A stretch of DNA of 23,265 nt from a virus. Below the pieces are notes generated by a model. That model was given only the letters and a program-made list of their open reading frames with translations. It ran no database searches and had not been told where the DNA came from. Position 1 is the first letter of the stretch, and the number at the start of each line of letters is the position of its first letter. Positions 4,143 to 21,982 of the stretch are shown here, piece after piece. The DNA lies in the IMG/VR virus record IMGVR_UViG_3300022200_001048, positions 1-23,265 of that record. One strand, written 5' to 3'. Both the position numbers and the translations under genes were made by a program.

Positions 4143-6584
4143 ATGGCAACGATTCAAGATCAGTTAGACTTCGAAGAAAAGATGATCTACCAAGGTGTAG
4201 ACCGCTTCCGCAAGCAGCAGGAGGAGGCAGCTACATCACGCGGCTCCGAGACCTCTGCTGGAAGCACATTGCTTCGCAGCTACGTCTTGACGATCTCAGA
4301 CCATATCTCACTATACCTCGACGGTAAGCACCCAGAGGGTCGTCGTCGTAACCGTGTAGCTAAACTCGTAGAGACCGTAAACGTCGATAAGATCGCATTG
4401 CTATCCCTGCGTGCTATCATCAACGCCTTCTACACACAGGCTACTACACTGACCTCAGTTTGCACACAGATCGGTCGCCGTTGTGAGGATGAACTACGGT
4501 TCATGCACTTCGAGACTGAGTTCAAGGAATACTACGACAGCCTGATCCGCGACTTCCAGCGTAAGAACGTCACGAGCTACGAGCACCGTCGCCGTGTACT
4601 TCGTGCTAAGGGCGACGATCAGGGCCAGCAGTGGGCAGATTGGACAGAGAACCAGCACTTCGAAGTAGGTTCTTTGATCGTTAGTCTACTGATGGAAGTA
4701 TGTGACCTCGTAGAGCGCGAAGACAGTAAAGACAAGCGAGGACGTATCTCAGTACGTGTTGTTCCAACACAAGGTTGTATCGAGTGGATCGCCCGCCACA
4801 ATGAGGCTGTAGAGATCATGTCCCCTGATCGTATGCCTTGCCTTATCCCACCGGCGGATTGGGTGTCATACACAGATGGCGGCTTCTACAGCCCACGTCT
4901 GCGTCAGCGTACACCGCTCATCAAGGCTAACTACGCTGAAGGCAACCGTGCAGCGGTTTACGAAGCTGCTGACATGCCGGGTGTGTTCTCTGCTATCAAC
5001 TCCATGCAGAAGACAGCATGGCGCGTCAACACCCGTGTACACGATGTCATGAAGGAAGTATGGGCCAAGAACCTAGAGTGCGGTATGCCACGCTCTGAGC
5101 CTCTTGAGTTTCCGGACTGCCCACTACCTGCTGGTGTTGATAAGTCTGAGTTGCCGGAAGGCTCCCCGCTTCTAGAGTCATTCAATGACTGGAAGTCAGA
5201 GACTCGTGAACTACACACAGCAGAGCGCGAACGCCGCGCTAAGAACCTAGCGCTACTCCGCACTATGCGCCTCACAACAGAGATGCGCGTTCATGATATG
5301 TTCTTTTACGTTTATCAGTGTGATTTTCGGGGACGGGTTTACGCCACAGCTTCTGGACTTAACCCACAGGGTACAGACCAATCCAAGGGACTCATTGAGT
5401 TCGCTAATGGTAAGGCTTTAGGCACCACAGGTTACAAATGGTTCATGATTAACGCAGCCAATAAGTACGGCTACGATAAGGTGTCATACGACGAGCGCGT
5501 AGCATGGGTAGAGGACAACGCAGCTAAGTGGCTTGCTGTTGCTGCTGATCCAATCAGCAACCGCGCTGTATGGACTGAAGCAGACAAGCCTTGGCAGTTC
5601 CTAGCGTGGTGCTTTGAGTTCTGTGACATGCTTGGTATGGATGACCACCGAGACTTCGTATCACACCTCCCAGTGGGCCTTGACGGCTCCTGTAACGGCC
5701 TACAGCACTTCTCTGCTATGCTTCGTGACTCAGTAGGCGGTGCAGCAGTTAATCTCATCCCCTCACACAAACCAGCCGACATCTACCAGTCAGTTGCAAA
5801 CGTGTGCTACAGTAAGCTCAAGACCAGTGACGACCCAGCAGCACAGAATTGGGTATGGATGTGCGGTGACTCTATGCCACGCAGCCTGTCTAAGTCCCCA
5901 GTGATGACCCTGCCATACGGTTCTACCCAGAACTCATGCACAGGTAGTGTCTACAAGTGGCTCAACGAGAAGGCAGAGCGCAGCTTCCCAGCTAACACAG
6001 CGTTCCGTCACAGCATCGCCCTGTCACCTATCCTCTGGGAGAGTATCGGTGAAGTAGTTATCGCAGCTCGTGCAGCTATGGACTGGATTCAAGACTGCTC
6101 ATCCATCATCTCTAAGTCAGGTAACGACATCCGGTACACAAGCCCACTAGGTTTCCCTGTTATCCAACGCCGTATGAAGTACGAGACCAAGCAGATCGAA
6201 ACACAGATCGGTGGACGCCTTCGTCTTCGCCTCGCTACCTTCACAGATGACATCGACTCACGTAAGCAGCGTCAGGGTTCATCCCCTAACCTCGTTCACC
6301 ACGTAGATGCTTGCCACATGATGATGACTATCAATGCAGCAGCCGAGCACGGTATCACTGACTTCGCTATGATCCACGACGACTTCGGCACACACGCTTG
6401 TGATGCAGAGGTACTACAGACAGCCATCCGTACTACCTTCGTTGCTCTACACTCAGAGCAAGACATCCTCGCAGACTTCAAGCAGGTACACGAAGAGCGT
6501 TGCGGTATTACCCTTCCAGACCTGCCAGAGACAGGTGATCTAGACATCAACGCAGTCCTCGAAAGCCCTTATTTCTTTGGGTGA
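4143..6584 (+). CDS. T7-type single-subunit DNA-directed RNA polymerase
   Basis: The 813-residue protein would transcribe the virion genes from phage promoters. Aligned by eye to T7 RNAP (883 residues): FRGRVYATASGLNPQG (395-410) is the conserved palm entry; VGLDGSCNGLQHFSAMLRD holds catalytic D514 (T7 D537); MPRSLSKSPVMTLPYGS holds R580, K584 and Y592 (T7 R627, K631, Y639); and FAMIHDDFGT holds H745 and D746 (T7 H811, D812). The C-terminus ESPYFFG matches the T7 ESDFAFA foot. The promoter specificity loop is about 11 residues shorter than in T7 (see findings). The ATG has AGGGA 5-9 bases upstream. Lying after the DNA-metabolism genes implies that those genes rely on host RNA polymerase and that this enzyme acts in the late phase. 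Confidence 0.97.
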   Translation: MATIQDQLDFEEKMIYQGVDRFRKQQEEAATSRGSETSAGSTLLRSYVLTISDHISLYLDGKHPEGRRRNRVAKLVETVNVDKIALLSLRAIINAFYTQATTLTSVCTQIGRRCEDELRFMHFETEFKEYYDSLIRDFQRKNVTSYEHRRRVLRAKGDDQGQQWADWTENQHFEVGSLIVSLLMEVCDLVEREDSKDKRGRISVRVVPTQGCIEWIARHNEAVEIMSPDRMPCLIPPADWVSYTDGGFYSPRLRQRTPLIKANYAEGNRAAVYEAADMPGVFSAINSMQKTAWRVNTRVHDVMKEVWAKNLECGMPRSEPLEFPDCPLPAGVDKSELPEGSPLLESFNDWKSETRELHTAERERRAKNLALLRTMRLTTEMRVHDMFFYVYQCDFRGRVYATASGLNPQGTDQSKGLIEFANGKALGTTGYKWFMINAANKYGYDKVSYDERVAWVEDNAAKWLAVAADPISNRAVWTEADKPWQFLAWCFEFCDMLGMDDHRDFVSHLPVGLDGSCNGLQHFSAMLRDSVGGAAVNLIPSHKPADIYQSVANVCYSKLKTSDDPAAQNWVWMCGDSMPRSLSKSPVMTLPYGSTQNSCTGSVYKWLNEKAERSFPANTAFRHSIALSPILWESIGEVVIAARAAMDWIQDCSSIISKSGNDIRYTSPLGFPVIQRRMKYETKQIETQIGGRLRLRLATFTDDIDSRKQRQGSSPNLVHHVDACHMMMTINAAAEHGITDFAMIHDDFGTHACDAEVLQTAIRTTFVALHSEQDILADFKQVHEERCGITLPDLPETGDLDINAVLESPYFFG

Positions 6585-6589
6585 TACTC

Positions 6590-6611
6590 TTAACCCCTCT
6601 CTCAAGAGAAA
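6590..6611 (+). promoter_or_regulatory. Candidate phage RNA polymerase promoter (phi6.5-like position)
   Basis: This 22-base stretch matches the one at 21961-21982 at 19 of 22 positions, sharing TTAAC, CCTC, CT and AAGAGAAA in the same register. It resembles the T3 consensus around -10 to -1 (CCTCACTAAA); here it reads CCTCTCTCAA, followed by GAGAAA with a predicted start at G6606. It lies 5 bases after the RNA polymerase stop and before all virion genes, where T7 has its phi6.5 promoter. No start-site data exist, so it is a prediction. Confidence 0.65.
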
Positions 6612-6626
6612 TTAACTTGAGGGAGG
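6596..6626 (+). promoter_or_regulatory. Hairpin pairing the promoter core with the next ribosome binding site
   Basis: The arms CCTCTCTCAAG (6596-6606) and CTTGAGGGAGG (6616-6626) pair over 11 base pairs with one G-U wobble and a 9-base A/T-rich loop. The right arm contains the GGGAGG ribosome site of the gene at 6632. The left arm lies upstream of or at the predicted start G6606, so it would be absent from transcripts begun at this promoter and present in read-through transcripts. No T-run follows, so this is unlikely to be a terminator. Confidence 0.55.
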
Positions 6627-6631
6627 ATCAG

Positions 6632-6769
6632 ATGTATGCACATTTAGATCAAGATGAACAACTCCTTCTAGCTATACAATTCCACCTAAGTAATACTGCA
6701 ATACCAAAAGAGTTGCAGGAACTACTAGGACCAGACCTCATTAATGATGTACTGAGAGTTGATAGTTAG
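6632..6769 (+). CDS. Small hypothetical protein, 45 residues
   Basis: I do not recognise this protein. It is acidic and mostly helical-looking: MYAHLDQDEQLLLAIQFHL is followed by a Pro-broken helix (IPKELQELLGPDLINDVL). It has no membrane segment or cysteine. The start is the ATG at 6632, preceded at 5 bases by GGGAGG. A GTG at 6581 would extend it by 17 residues, but that start overlaps the RNA polymerase end and has no comparable ribosome site. It is the first gene after the candidate promoter at 6590, a position T7 fills with small genes such as 6.5 and 6.7, though no similarity is claimed. Confidence 0.7.
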   Translation: MYAHLDQDEQLLLAIQFHLSNTAIPKELQELLGPDLINDVLRVDS

Positions 6770-10333: not shown

Positions 10334-11308
10334 ATGTCAGGTGTAAACATCCCAACCGACTCAACTCACCTATCCGATCAGGCAATTGCCGATATGATCG
10401 AACAGTATGGTGGATTCGTGGACTCACAGTTCGCTAAGAAATCCATGATGCGCAACTTCGTTAACGTCAAATCCGTCAAGGGTACAGACACCATTCTTAA
10501 CCGTCGCGTAGGCAAGACTTCCTTGACTACTTTGACTGCTGGTGTACGTCCTGCCGCAACTGCAACTGCGTTCGGTTCCACATCGCTGACCATCGACACT
10601 GTAGTCATGGCCCGTGACAACCGCTCCATGCTCAATGAGTTCCAGATCGACTTCAATGCTCGTAAAGAACTCGGCATGGATCACGGTAAAGAACTCGGTA
10701 AGCTCTTCGATGAATCCCTGCTGATCGCAGGCATCAAAGGTGCTGCTGCTTCTGCCCCTGCTGGTTTGAACGGCGCTTTCGGTGCTGGTACAACTGCAAC
10801 TCTGGGTGCTATCGGTGACGAGCTTGACCCAACTGCACTCTACATTGCGCTTGAAAAAGGCGTTGTTGCTATGCAGACAGCGGACATGGACACAGATGAG
10901 TGTGTATGGTTCGTGACTCCAACTCAGTACGCTGTTCTGTTGAACAACGACAAGCTGGTGAATCAGGACTACTCCACTGAGAACGGCGACTTCGCTAACG
11001 GTAAGTTCAAGACTGTAATGGGTGTTCCTGTTGTAGCTACTAACCGCTTGCCAACCGCAGCGATCACTGGTCACCCTCTGTCCACCGCAGCTAACTCTAA
11101 CTTCTACGATGTATCTGCTGCCGAAGCACGTACAGAAGCTCTGTTGCTGCACCCATCCGCTCTGATGGTTGGTGAAACCATTCCGTTGACTTCTGATGTC
11201 TACTTCAGCAAGATCGAACGCCAGTGGTTCATCGACTCGTTGATGGCTTACGGTGCTAACTTCAACCGCCCAGATGGTTGCTACGCAATTCAGTCTATCA
11301 TCGCCTAA
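10334..11308 (+). CDS. Major capsid protein, T7 gp10-like
   Basis: The 324-residue protein (T7 10A is 345) forms the HK97-fold icosahedral shell. Recognisable parts include the N-terminal FAKKSMMRNFVNVKSVKGTD, the KTSLTTLTAGVRP stretch, MARDNRSMLNEFQIDF, and DTDECVWFVTPTQYAVLLNN leading to GVPVVATNRLP, typical of T7-like coats. The ribosome site AAAGGAG sits 8 bases before the ATG. Leucine codon choice differs from neighbours: of 27 leucines only one is CTA and none TTA, whereas the next gene uses CTA for 5 of 19, as expected for the most highly expressed gene. A strong terminator follows 6 bases after the stop, the same arrangement as T7 Tphi. I see no evidence for a frameshifted longer form. 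Confidence 0.96.
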   Translation: MSGVNIPTDSTHLSDQAIADMIEQYGGFVDSQFAKKSMMRNFVNVKSVKGTDTILNRRVGKTSLTTLTAGVRPAATATAFGSTSLTIDTVVMARDNRSMLNEFQIDFNARKELGMDHGKELGKLFDESLLIAGIKGAAASAPAGLNGAFGAGTTATLGAIGDELDPTALYIALEKGVVAMQTADMDTDECVWFVTPTQYAVLLNNDKLVNQDYSTENGDFANGKFKTVMGVPVVATNRLPTAAITGHPLSTAANSNFYDVSAAEARTEALLLHPSALMVGETIPLTSDVYFSKIERQWFIDSLMAYGANFNRPDGCYAIQSIIA

Positions 11309-11314
11309 CTAATC

Positions 11315-11346
11315 AGCCCTCTCCTTAATTGGAGGGGGCTTTTTTT
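11315..11346 (+). terminator. Strong intrinsic terminator after the capsid gene (Tphi-like)
   Basis: AGCCCTCTCC (11315-11324) pairs with GGAGGGGGCT (11331-11340) over 10 base pairs with one G-U, a TTAATT loop, and seven T residues (11340-11346). In T7 the class III terminator Tphi holds the same place after gene 10 and lets only part of the polymerases pass, keeping coat mRNA in excess over tail mRNA. The same role is inferred here. Confidence 0.93.
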
Positions 11347-11354
11347 CATTTGTT

Positions 11355-15095: not shown

Positions 15096-18000
15096 ATGGC
15101 TCAAGGAATAGAGCGCCGTGTCGGCGTAGCTGATAGCCTAGCTGGTGCGGCTGAAGTCGTACCCGTAGTTAGTAATGCTGCTCCGTTGTCAGCACCACAA
15201 GTACAAGTACACAGTCAGAACTACAGTGACTCAGCAGCTCAGTATGGGATTCAACGATCCGCTGGGGTAGCTAACTCACTGAACAAATGGGCTAGTAGCA
15301 AGATTCAAGAGGTCGCTAATACTCGGAATGAAGCTGCTATACTCGACGGGCAGATGGCTTACCAGCAGGGTAAGACTATGGATGCAGTAGAGATGGAGGG
15401 TGACAAGTGGTCACTCTCTGGCTACCGCGTTATGCACGCACAGACGCTATCACAGACCATGCTTACAACACAGCAGGAAATGATCCGTCAGTCACAGTAC
15501 GAGCAAGACCCAGATGCGTTCCGTGCACAATACGTGGCTCGTATGGAAGCACAGATCAAAGGGCTAGACCCACAGACCGCACGTATGGTTCGTGAGACTA
15601 TGTCAGAGCAGATGCCTACTCTAGTAGCAGAGCATACATCAGCGCATCTCGGATACCAAGAGCGTGAAGCATACAAGTCACTGGTTACATCAGTAGACGC
15701 ATTGTCGAAGGATTCATCAGCCTTTGCTTCATTGCTCGTCAATGCCGCTGGCGGTGAAGGTAGCCCGTCCTCTGGTCTATCCTCAGACCGCCGTATGGCG
15801 GCTGTAGTGGATGGTGTAGGCGCTGCGTTCGAGAACATGAACCCTATCGCGTATCAGCAGCTAAAGCAGTCTGGTCTCCTTGAGTCCATGTCGGCACCTC
15901 AGAGGCAGGCTATGCGTGCAGCACAGCAGGCTTATGAGAACCGTGTACGCACTACTTATGATGCAGAGCACACAGAGGCATTGAGCAACTGGCAACGCCG
16001 TATTGAGGCAGGTGATCTGGAACCAGCAGAAGCAGCGGAAGCTCTTGCTGCTATCTGGGGTAAACGTGATGTCACTATGTCAGCAGCAGAAGGCGGCGCT
16101 GCGTACAGTGGCGCTGTTACTGCTCAAGACCATGGTGATCGCGCTAAGGTAACTAACATCGCTACAGCTACTGTACGCGGTGATTGGGATTCTGTCGCAC
16201 GTCAGACACAAGACATCGTGATGCAGTTCGAGAGCGGTGGTAATCTAGACGCTGTTGGCCCCCTAATCGAAGGTGGTGCTAACAAAGGCGACAGAGCACA
16301 AGGCGGTATGCAGGTCATGCCTAAGACGCTGGATGATCCCGGATTCGGTATCAGACCGTCTAACGGTACACGAGAAGACAGTCTTCGTGTGGGTCGTGAT
16401 TACTGGGCTATGAACGTCGCACGCTACCAAGGTAATATCGAAGCAGCAGCTATCGGCTACAACGCTGGTCCCGGAAACGCGGACAAGTGGATTGCTGCTG
16501 GTGGTGGTGAAGCAGGTTATGCTGCTTTGGAAGCTGCTGGTGTACGCGTCTCTGAGACACGCCCTTACGCTGAAGGTATCGCAAAAGAAGCTAACGGCGA
16601 TGCACTGCATTATTCTACAGCAGAACAGCTCACTATGGCAGAAGCTGAACTCAGGTCTGCACAGACCATGCGTACAGCCCTTCTCAAGTCGAATGAAGAT
16701 GCACGTATTGTAGCCTCTACAATCCAGCACAACGATGATATGTCTGCCCTAGACGACGCGCTTGCGAACGGTGGTATCTCACCCTCCGCCTATAGGGCAG
16801 CCGCAGCAGACTCCCGTACGGGTTTAGGACTCGTGCAGACTGTAGCTCAAGGTAATCACATCAACACGCAGATAACTGCTGCTGCTGAGGCCGCTGCTAC
16901 AGAGGCAACAGCAGGACGTCTTGCTGTGGTTAAAGTACAGCAGGCTTCTGCGCATGATGTATTAACCCGTACTCTAGAGACACCGGGTATTACTGTTGAA
17001 CAAGCTCAGGCAGCTACAGCAGCATTCACCGAAGAAGTCGCTGATCTTTACAGCGCTGCTGGTTTTAACCTAGCTGAGACAGACTCGGAACAGACGCTTA
17101 AAGGCGCACTGACACAACTGCGTAAAGCAGAGTCGGATATCGCTGAGTACAAAGCAGACGGTAATGTCATCGCTAGAGCGCGGGCTACAGGAACCGTAGA
17201 TCAGTTACCAGCTAAACTACGTGAGCGCTTTGATCGTGAGTCGCAGGCTGAAGTAGAGAAGACTCTTTCTGATGGGGTGGCTAATGGTTCTATTGATGAC
17301 AGTCAAGTCATTGGTCTGCACAGCGCAGCTATGGAAGCTAGTGCAGTAGAGGCAGGTACAGTAACCAAAGACGTGCAAGCTGTGTCTACACTAGCCATGC
17401 GTAATATGATCGGCCCTGATGGTAGACCTACAGACGCTGCTATCCAGACAGTCCTTAAATACGGGCGTCTGCTTGATGGGAGTGCTAAGGCTGCTAACTC
17501 TATGTTCACAACACCTGAGTCCATTAACACTATGGCTGCTGTGTTTGAGGCTGCGTCAGGTAATCTAACTAGCCCACAGCTAGTTGGTGATGCTATCATG
17601 GCAGCGGTCAATGATCGTGAGTTAACCCTCGGCTTGAACTCAGTACAGACACCTGCTAATCAGGATCGTATTGCTAAAGAGATAACGAACTCTGTTGACG
17701 CTTGGGCTAAAGGCGAAGACATCGGCGTACTGCAAGGTATGTTCTCCAGCAATACAGATGTGAGTCAGGCTTGGCTACAGACTAACGTAGAGCAAGACCT
17801 AGCGGGTGCTCAAGCAGGTCGCGAACAACTCACAGGAGCCGTTACAGAAGAGGTTAATCGTCTCCTCAAAGAAGACCCTGCGATGGCTACTCATGTCGCT
17901 ATACAGAGGGCTACAGCGGAGGTACTAGATCGTACCGCTGTCGTAGGCGGCTCTATGCAGATCATGGACCCCGGCTTCAATATGCTCGACCAGATGTTCG

Positions 18001-21937: not shown

Positions 21938-21962
21938 AAGGGGGCGGCTTATGTCGCCCCTT
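21938..21962 (+). terminator. Hairpin directly abutting the fibre-gene promoter
   Basis: AAGGGGGCGGC (21938-21948) pairs with GTCGCCCCTT (21953-21962), ten base pairs with one bulged G and one G-U, and loop TTAT. The right arm ends inside the first bases of the candidate promoter. No T-run follows beyond TT, so it is a weak terminator or mRNA 3'-end stabiliser rather than a full stop. Confidence 0.6.
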
Positions 21963-21982
21963 AACACCTCACTAAAGAGAAA
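21961..21982 (+). promoter_or_regulatory. Candidate phage RNA polymerase promoter, T3-like (phi17-like position)
   Basis: CCTCACTAAAGAGAAA at 21967-21982 reproduces the T3 promoter -10 to -1 bases (CCTCACTAAA) exactly and continues with a purine start (predicted +1 at G21977). The preceding TTAACA also parallels the T3 AATTAACC block with a one-base shift. It shares 19 of 22 bases with 6590-6611. T7 has promoter phi17 at the same place, before the tail fibre gene. The transcript leader would be 27 bases before the ATG at 22004. Confidence 0.72.

Follow-up and report, generated by a model that had tools for sequence, protein, structure and literature searches.

The 45-aa gene directly downstream of the RNA polymerase (RNAP) gene in a T7-like phage is likely controlled by a cis-acting translation switch that is gated by the transcription start site (TSS). 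A read-through transcript from the RNAP gene would carry both arms of a hairpin, so that the arm preceding the TSS would pair with the Shine-Dalgarno sequence (SD) and shut translation of the 45-aa gene. Once made, the phage RNAP would start at G6606 and give an RNA without the left arm, leaving the SD open for translation of the 45-aa protein. Support at the level of sequence comes from the overlap of promoter, hairpin and SD, from the coevolution of pre-TSS segment and SD, from the restriction of the pairing to the promoter following RNAP and from its tolerance of G-U pairs. Long transcripts presumably occur during infection, the predicted hairpin would block binding of the 30S subunit, and the purpose of the arrangement may be to hold back a small protein that is late or harmful.

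The analyzed DNA, here called the window, is a phage fragment of 23,265 bases (Table 1). It encodes a phrog_414 single-subunit RNAP, a phrog_449 head-tail adaptor as well as scaffold, major head and tail proteins, which places it in the Autographiviridae (T7-like phages). Genes for an exonuclease, a MazG-like protein, ribonucleotide reductase, thymidylate synthase and endonuclease VII precede RNAP; small genes, an acetyltransferase, the head-tail adaptor, scaffold, major head and tail proteins follow it. A DNA-level search of a phage collection with the window returned one short unrelated match. Between the RNAP stop codon (6582–6584) and the 45-aa gene there are 47 bases, and this gap houses the promoter, the 11-bp hairpin and the SD. 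No intrinsic terminator (G+C stem plus T-run) was found on the + strand between 4000 and 7000, and comparison with Rfam families gave chance-level matches only, none above the gathering score. A strong terminator-like hairpin with a T-run is present 3' of the major head gene at 11308–11350.

Table 1. Location of the features discussed in the text, in window coordinates unless stated otherwise.
Feature	Position	Strand	Basis or remark
T7-like phage fragment (window), IMG/VR record IMGVR_UViG_3300022200_001048	1–23,265		23,265 bases
Gene for the phage's single-subunit RNAP (813 aa), origin of read-through transcripts	4143..6584	+	ORF; phrog_414, E 3.4e-267
T3-like phage promoter, TSS G6606, TTAACCCCTCTCTCAAGAG	6590..6608	+	relatives-only PWM 19.5, second best in window; sister at 21961
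Hairpin left arm CCTCTCTCAAG, promoter -10 to +1	6596..6606	+	in read-through RNA only, except +1
Hairpin loop AGAAATTAA	6607..6615	+	sequence
Hairpin right arm CTTGAGGGAGG, includes SD	6616..6626	+	sequence, folding
Shine-Dalgarno sequence GGGAGG	6621..6626	+	duplex with anti-SD -11.4 kcal/mol
Second small hairpin across start codon, in long and short transcripts alike	6626..6650	+	folding
45-aa gene, distant member of PHROG 14866 (function unknown)	6632..6769	+	ORF; profile-profile match
Sister phage promoter, TSS 21977, TTAACACCTCACTAAAGAG, before tail-fibre-like gene; without SD hairpin (control)	21961..21979	+	PWM 21.6; ddG 0.0
Atu_ph03 (L209) promoters, Atu_ph03 coordinates	159, 11891, 17361, 21179, 33330, 40516	one strand	motif; none annotated

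The hairpin was found exactly where the original prediction had placed it, with 11 bp and with the GGGAGG ribosome site of the gene starting at 6632 inside its right arm. Ten of the 11 pairs are Watson-Crick, the eleventh, U6600-G6622, being a wobble in RNA. The TSS is the final base of the left arm, and the ATG of the 45-aa gene lies 3' of the SD. All structure energies given here are predictions. The 79-nt RNA beginning at the RNAP stop codon is predicted to fold with the hairpin closed at -21.5 kcal/mol, compared to -13.6 kcal/mol for shuffled RNA (z -2.9; 1 of 200 shuffles as good), and RNA begun at 6606 folds at -8.1 kcal/mol with the 11-bp hairpin absent. The predicted cost of opening the region from SD to AUG is 16.8 kcal/mol in the read-through RNA versus 6.5 kcal/mol in RNA from 6606, and the predicted probability of an unpaired SD is 0.02 in the long versus 0.58 in the short RNA.

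The candidate promoter starting at G6606 within the left arm was borne out by a PWM derived from post-RNAP sites of relatives, with the window and its 96% relative excluded. In the window this PWM ranked TSS 21977 first (21.6), followed by TSS 6606 (19.5) and a third site at 13.8; the best score in reversed sequence was 13.6. Recurrence of the promoter sequence at 6606 and 21961 was expected 0.00 times by chance. The promoter resembles the T3 promoter. By sequence it is genuine, and its motif suggests that 6606 is used as start; no mapped start sites were found for the clade of the window. In the Agrobacterium phage Atu_ph03 six near-identical promoters (TTATCCTTCGTATAAGGAATAA) are located on one strand (scores 38–41, next site 9), the predicted start of the post-RNAP promoter being the GG of AAGGAAAATA at about 17377–17378. 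A tRNA-like 3' end (GGTTCAAATCCTGCCTTGGGACACCA) lies between promoter and small gene in L102, where ARAGORN finds no tRNA.

Post-RNAP regions of relatives were gathered from viral contigs and annotated phages, with loci labelled by L-numbers. In these regions the TSS was picked by eye from the promoter motif, and start codons were assigned from small-protein homology. The comparison excluded relatives whose first gene is of another kind (ParMal1, ParKuw1, L117 type), and also L098, whose promoter is ambiguous; L162 has a tandem pair of promoter-like repeats and was entered with the second of them. The 96% relative (arms CCCCUC-U-CUCAAG/CUUGAGGAGGGG) keeps promoter and pairing in spite of altered arms, as does the 85% relative (CUCCCUUAAGA/UUUUGAGGGGG), the latter via G-U pairs. 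Loss of pairing in close relatives that keep the promoter, which the original prediction had named as evidence against itself, was thus not observed. Arms quite unlike those of the window were found in L003 (ACCUCCGUA/UACAGGAGGU), L173 (GCACUUCCUUA/UAAGGAAGUGC), L183 (GGUAUCCCAGUGU/ACACUGGGAUACC), RHph_Y1_20 (CCGGACCCUUUUAG/CUGAAAGGGUUCGG), Atu_ph03 (GGCCUCCGGUUAU/AUAAUUGGAGGCC) and Oiolarie (UUGCCUGACC/GGUCAGGCAA). Judged by RNAP match, RHph_TM34 is closely related to RHph_Y1_20. Even where the leader is long (80 nt in L183, 77 nt in L011) the partner of the SD is still located immediately 5' of the TSS. The location of the left arm varies among phages between the promoter core, the region upstream of the promoter and the RNAP 3' end, and the SD region is still reached. 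The covariation of the arms which the original prediction had proposed to check is therefore present: pairing between the pre-TSS segment and the SD is preserved with changed sequence over a broad set of Autographiviridae. Together with the predicted folding this comparison supports the claim that read-through RNA hides the SD and RNA from 6606 frees it.

Some post-RNAP regions showed other arrangements. In L087, L022, L023, L085 and L205 a stem encloses the promoter and holds the promoter's pyrimidine tract in its loop, from where pseudoknot pairing with the SD further downstream would be possible. Loci of the Paracoccus-phage type (L078, L079, L032, L051, L057) carry a long structured leader after the RNAP stop, with a common GTTCTCTCCC...GGTATCTGT element and a different first gene.

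Pyrimidine-rich promoters and purine-rich SDs might be complementary by chance and pair without selection. Non-cognate promoters indeed pair somewhat, with a mean duplex energy of -10.8 kcal/mol and a median non-cognate ddG of 5.0 for the SD of the window. Cognate pairing was compared with permutations in which pre-TSS segments were swapped among RNAP clusters, so that the composition of promoter and SD was kept and cognate pairing broken. Treating clusters as independent, and with much of the left arm coinciding with promoter sequence that is under its own constraint, duplex energy over 32 RNAP clusters was -15.3 for cognate versus -10.8 kcal/mol for swapped pairs (z -9.6), and the opening-cost gain over 38 clusters was 7.9 versus 2.4 kcal/mol (z 14.6); none of 200,000 permutations was as good in either comparison. 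The z value was -8.0 without any TSS call and -9.1 with non-coding sequence only. Between sister promoters that share the motif and their own SDs there is no such pairing: ddG in Atu_ph03 is 17.0 kcal/mol at the post-RNAP promoter and -1.3 to 1.3 at four others (five of the six promoters tested), and in the window 10.3 kcal/mol at the 6606 promoter and 0.0 at the 21977 promoter. When the bases of the sister were placed in the 6606 promoter core, ddG fell from 10.3 to 5.7 kcal/mol. Among 268 other genes at the same loci the median gain was 0.3 kcal/mol with 1.1% above 8, versus 7.5 kcal/mol with 50% above 8 for the target gene (p 5e-12). We consider an origin of the pairing by chance very improbable.

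An inverted repeat acting at the DNA level, as a promoter-sited operator to which a repressor or activator binds, would be in keeping with a dyad that spans the TSS, but this reading is extremely improbable. Nearly every relative has its own half-site sequence, yet the two halves stay complementary, and although the six Atu_ph03 promoters have a common core, the repeat occurs at just one of the five tested. Non-Watson-Crick positions in cognate stems were mostly G-U and not C-A (23 and 6), compared to 282 G-U and 211 C-A positions when stems were non-cognate (Fisher p 0.02; G-U was scored as an ordinary mismatch when stems were defined). A G-U in the mRNA corresponds to a C-A in the opposite strand, so the mRNA, and not double-stranded DNA, appears to be what is under selection; the G·U tolerance of the arms points the same way.

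The gain reached at least 5 kcal/mol in 24 of the 38 clusters and stayed below 2 kcal/mol in eight (L165, L030, L087, L007, L082, L022, L164, L029), the 73% and 68% relatives among them. L165 retains a perfect 7-bp stem (CUCCGCU/AGCGGAG) despite its low gain, and in L087 the stem is present with the SD outside it. A clear version is absent in several relatives (L022, the L169 group, L030, L164 and others), and about a third of the clusters are without a clear switch. The strong form is found on either side of the RNAP tree's midpoint root and needs 12 changes, below all 500 shuffles (mean 17.4). On this tree the predicted switch groups by descent but has been lost or regained repeatedly. It is common in the group, not universal, and the view that it is peculiar to this phage has to be given up.

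Translational coupling offers a different account of the same region: ribosomes ending the RNAP gene might open up the left arm, or they might start again at GTG 6581, which overlaps the RNAP stop. The frame in the window is open from GTG 6581 to 6632, and the left arm is located in the RNAP 3' end in L100, L104, L163 and L199. However, the left arm of the window starts 12 nt past the RNAP stop, and a TSS between the arms would be superfluous for coupling. Only 10 of the 39 loci examined have this frame open as far back as the RNAP stop, the 96% relative not being one of them, and reinitiation at GTG 6581 was dismissed as a conserved trait. A coupling to translation of the RNAP gene is the less likely reading, and by itself quite unlikely.

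The hairpin might also be an RNase III site, cut in read-through RNA so that the RNAP mRNA is separated from the late mRNA, with the SD pairing as a by-product or second layer. T7 uses RNase III sites at the gene 1/1.1 junction, and the hairpin follows the RNAP gene at the position of R1.1 in T7, after gene 1. Long stems are found in some relatives (L162, L053). The 11-bp stem of the window is short for RNase III when compared with the long imperfect duplex of R1.1-type sites. Moreover, the arm goes together with the SD, which is reached in several phages even with the left arm elsewhere, and T7 gene 1.1 itself gains just 2.4–2.9 kcal/mol. As the sole explanation RNase III cleavage is unlikely; processing could act in addition to the start-site-gated switch.

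For that switch, transcript origin and not polymerase identity would decide whether the ribosome site is open or closed, and the original statement that the 45-residue protein is made only from phage-RNAP transcripts was too strong. Phage promoters are located about 2.3–2.5 kb upstream of the RNAP gene in L022 (3462 and 3503) and L084 (1697), where the RNAP gene itself may be transcribed by the phage RNAP. Because of these upstream promoters the phage polymerase can also yield long closed transcripts. The small protein is probably made solely from the right kind of transcript, in this phage and in many relatives.

The relatives have a common gene order in which one small-protein family occupies the slot after RNAP. 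PHROG 14866 is the first post-RNAP gene in Atu_ph03, Palo, NMeng1 and Alfirin, and the small protein of Atu_ph03 matches phrog_14866 with E 4e-33. For the 45-aa protein no match was obtained by hmmscan against PHROG 14866, by tblastn among phages or in Pfam, so that gene position and profile comparison were the sole routes to a family link. The 45-aa gene and PHROG 14866 genes share the same genomic position, and a profile of close relatives (window type) matched a profile of PHROG 14866 members (Atu_ph03 type) with a probability of 97% over 33 columns. In several rhizobial and related phages (L080 at about 4530; L199, L200, L202 and L205 after RNAP) the PHROG 14866-type gene has no ATG, GTG or TTG where expected; homology and SD spacing indicate an ATC or ATT start codon, missed by annotators.

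Control of translation by a late promoter within a hairpin is known from T4 gene e, whose long transcripts give about 100-fold less lysozyme, and also from soc, 49 and I-TevI (PMC3014915); the parallel drawn in the original prediction is correct. In T4 gene e as in the window the SD is hidden in the long RNA, which in T4 is an early transcript, here by predicted pairing, a promoter by the ribosome site gives RNA without the 5' arm, here with a PWM-placed TSS between the arms, and the structure is conserved in relatives. T4 gene e uses the host RNAP with the gp55 sigma factor and encodes lysozyme, whereas here a promoter of a single-subunit T7-like RNAP guards a PHROG 14866-type small protein directly after RNAP. 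The two have no sequence kinship and are linked by analogy only, with experiments existing for T4 alone.

Another comparable system is the T7 junction of gene 1, phi1.1A/phi1.1B, R1.1 and gene 1.1, where phage promoters right after the RNAP gene are likewise followed by a very small gene; unlike here, the SD of gene 1.1 is not hidden by pre-promoter sequence, which gives the low predicted gain noted above. LUZ100, an Autographiviridae phage with ONT-cappable-seq TSS data, has a phage promoter (phi2) mapped just behind RNAP and ahead of a small gene, but the promoter motif differs and no SD-sequestering arm was seen by eye. The words 'UTR' and 'secondary structure' are absent from the text of the LUZ100 transcriptome paper. 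For T7-like phages, our search of the non-subscription literature turned up no description of a switch of this kind. The logic of T4 gene e is known; as far as this search shows, the phage group, the gene and the polymerase type are new, and the comparative support drawn from the genomes is unusually strong.

It seems moderately probable that start-site-gated switches recur on the PHROG 14866-type gene after RNAP in much of the Autographiviridae, with pairing maintained as the sequence changes and the left arm built anew from different segments, because an early small protein would be harmful or spoil the early-to-late transition. The early-to-late change of T7-like phages is usually explained by promoter choice alone. 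If the switch operates as proposed, a translational lock tied to the transcript start would be a new layer of control, kept in many lineages by changes that preserve pairing. It makes a definite prediction for the culturable phages Atu_ph03, RHph_Y1_20 and RHph_TM33, and T7-type expression systems could take from it a compact, naturally occurring design that avoids leaky translation of read-through RNA. PHROG 14866, an unstudied family of small proteins, would be singled out as a product that the phage must not make too early.
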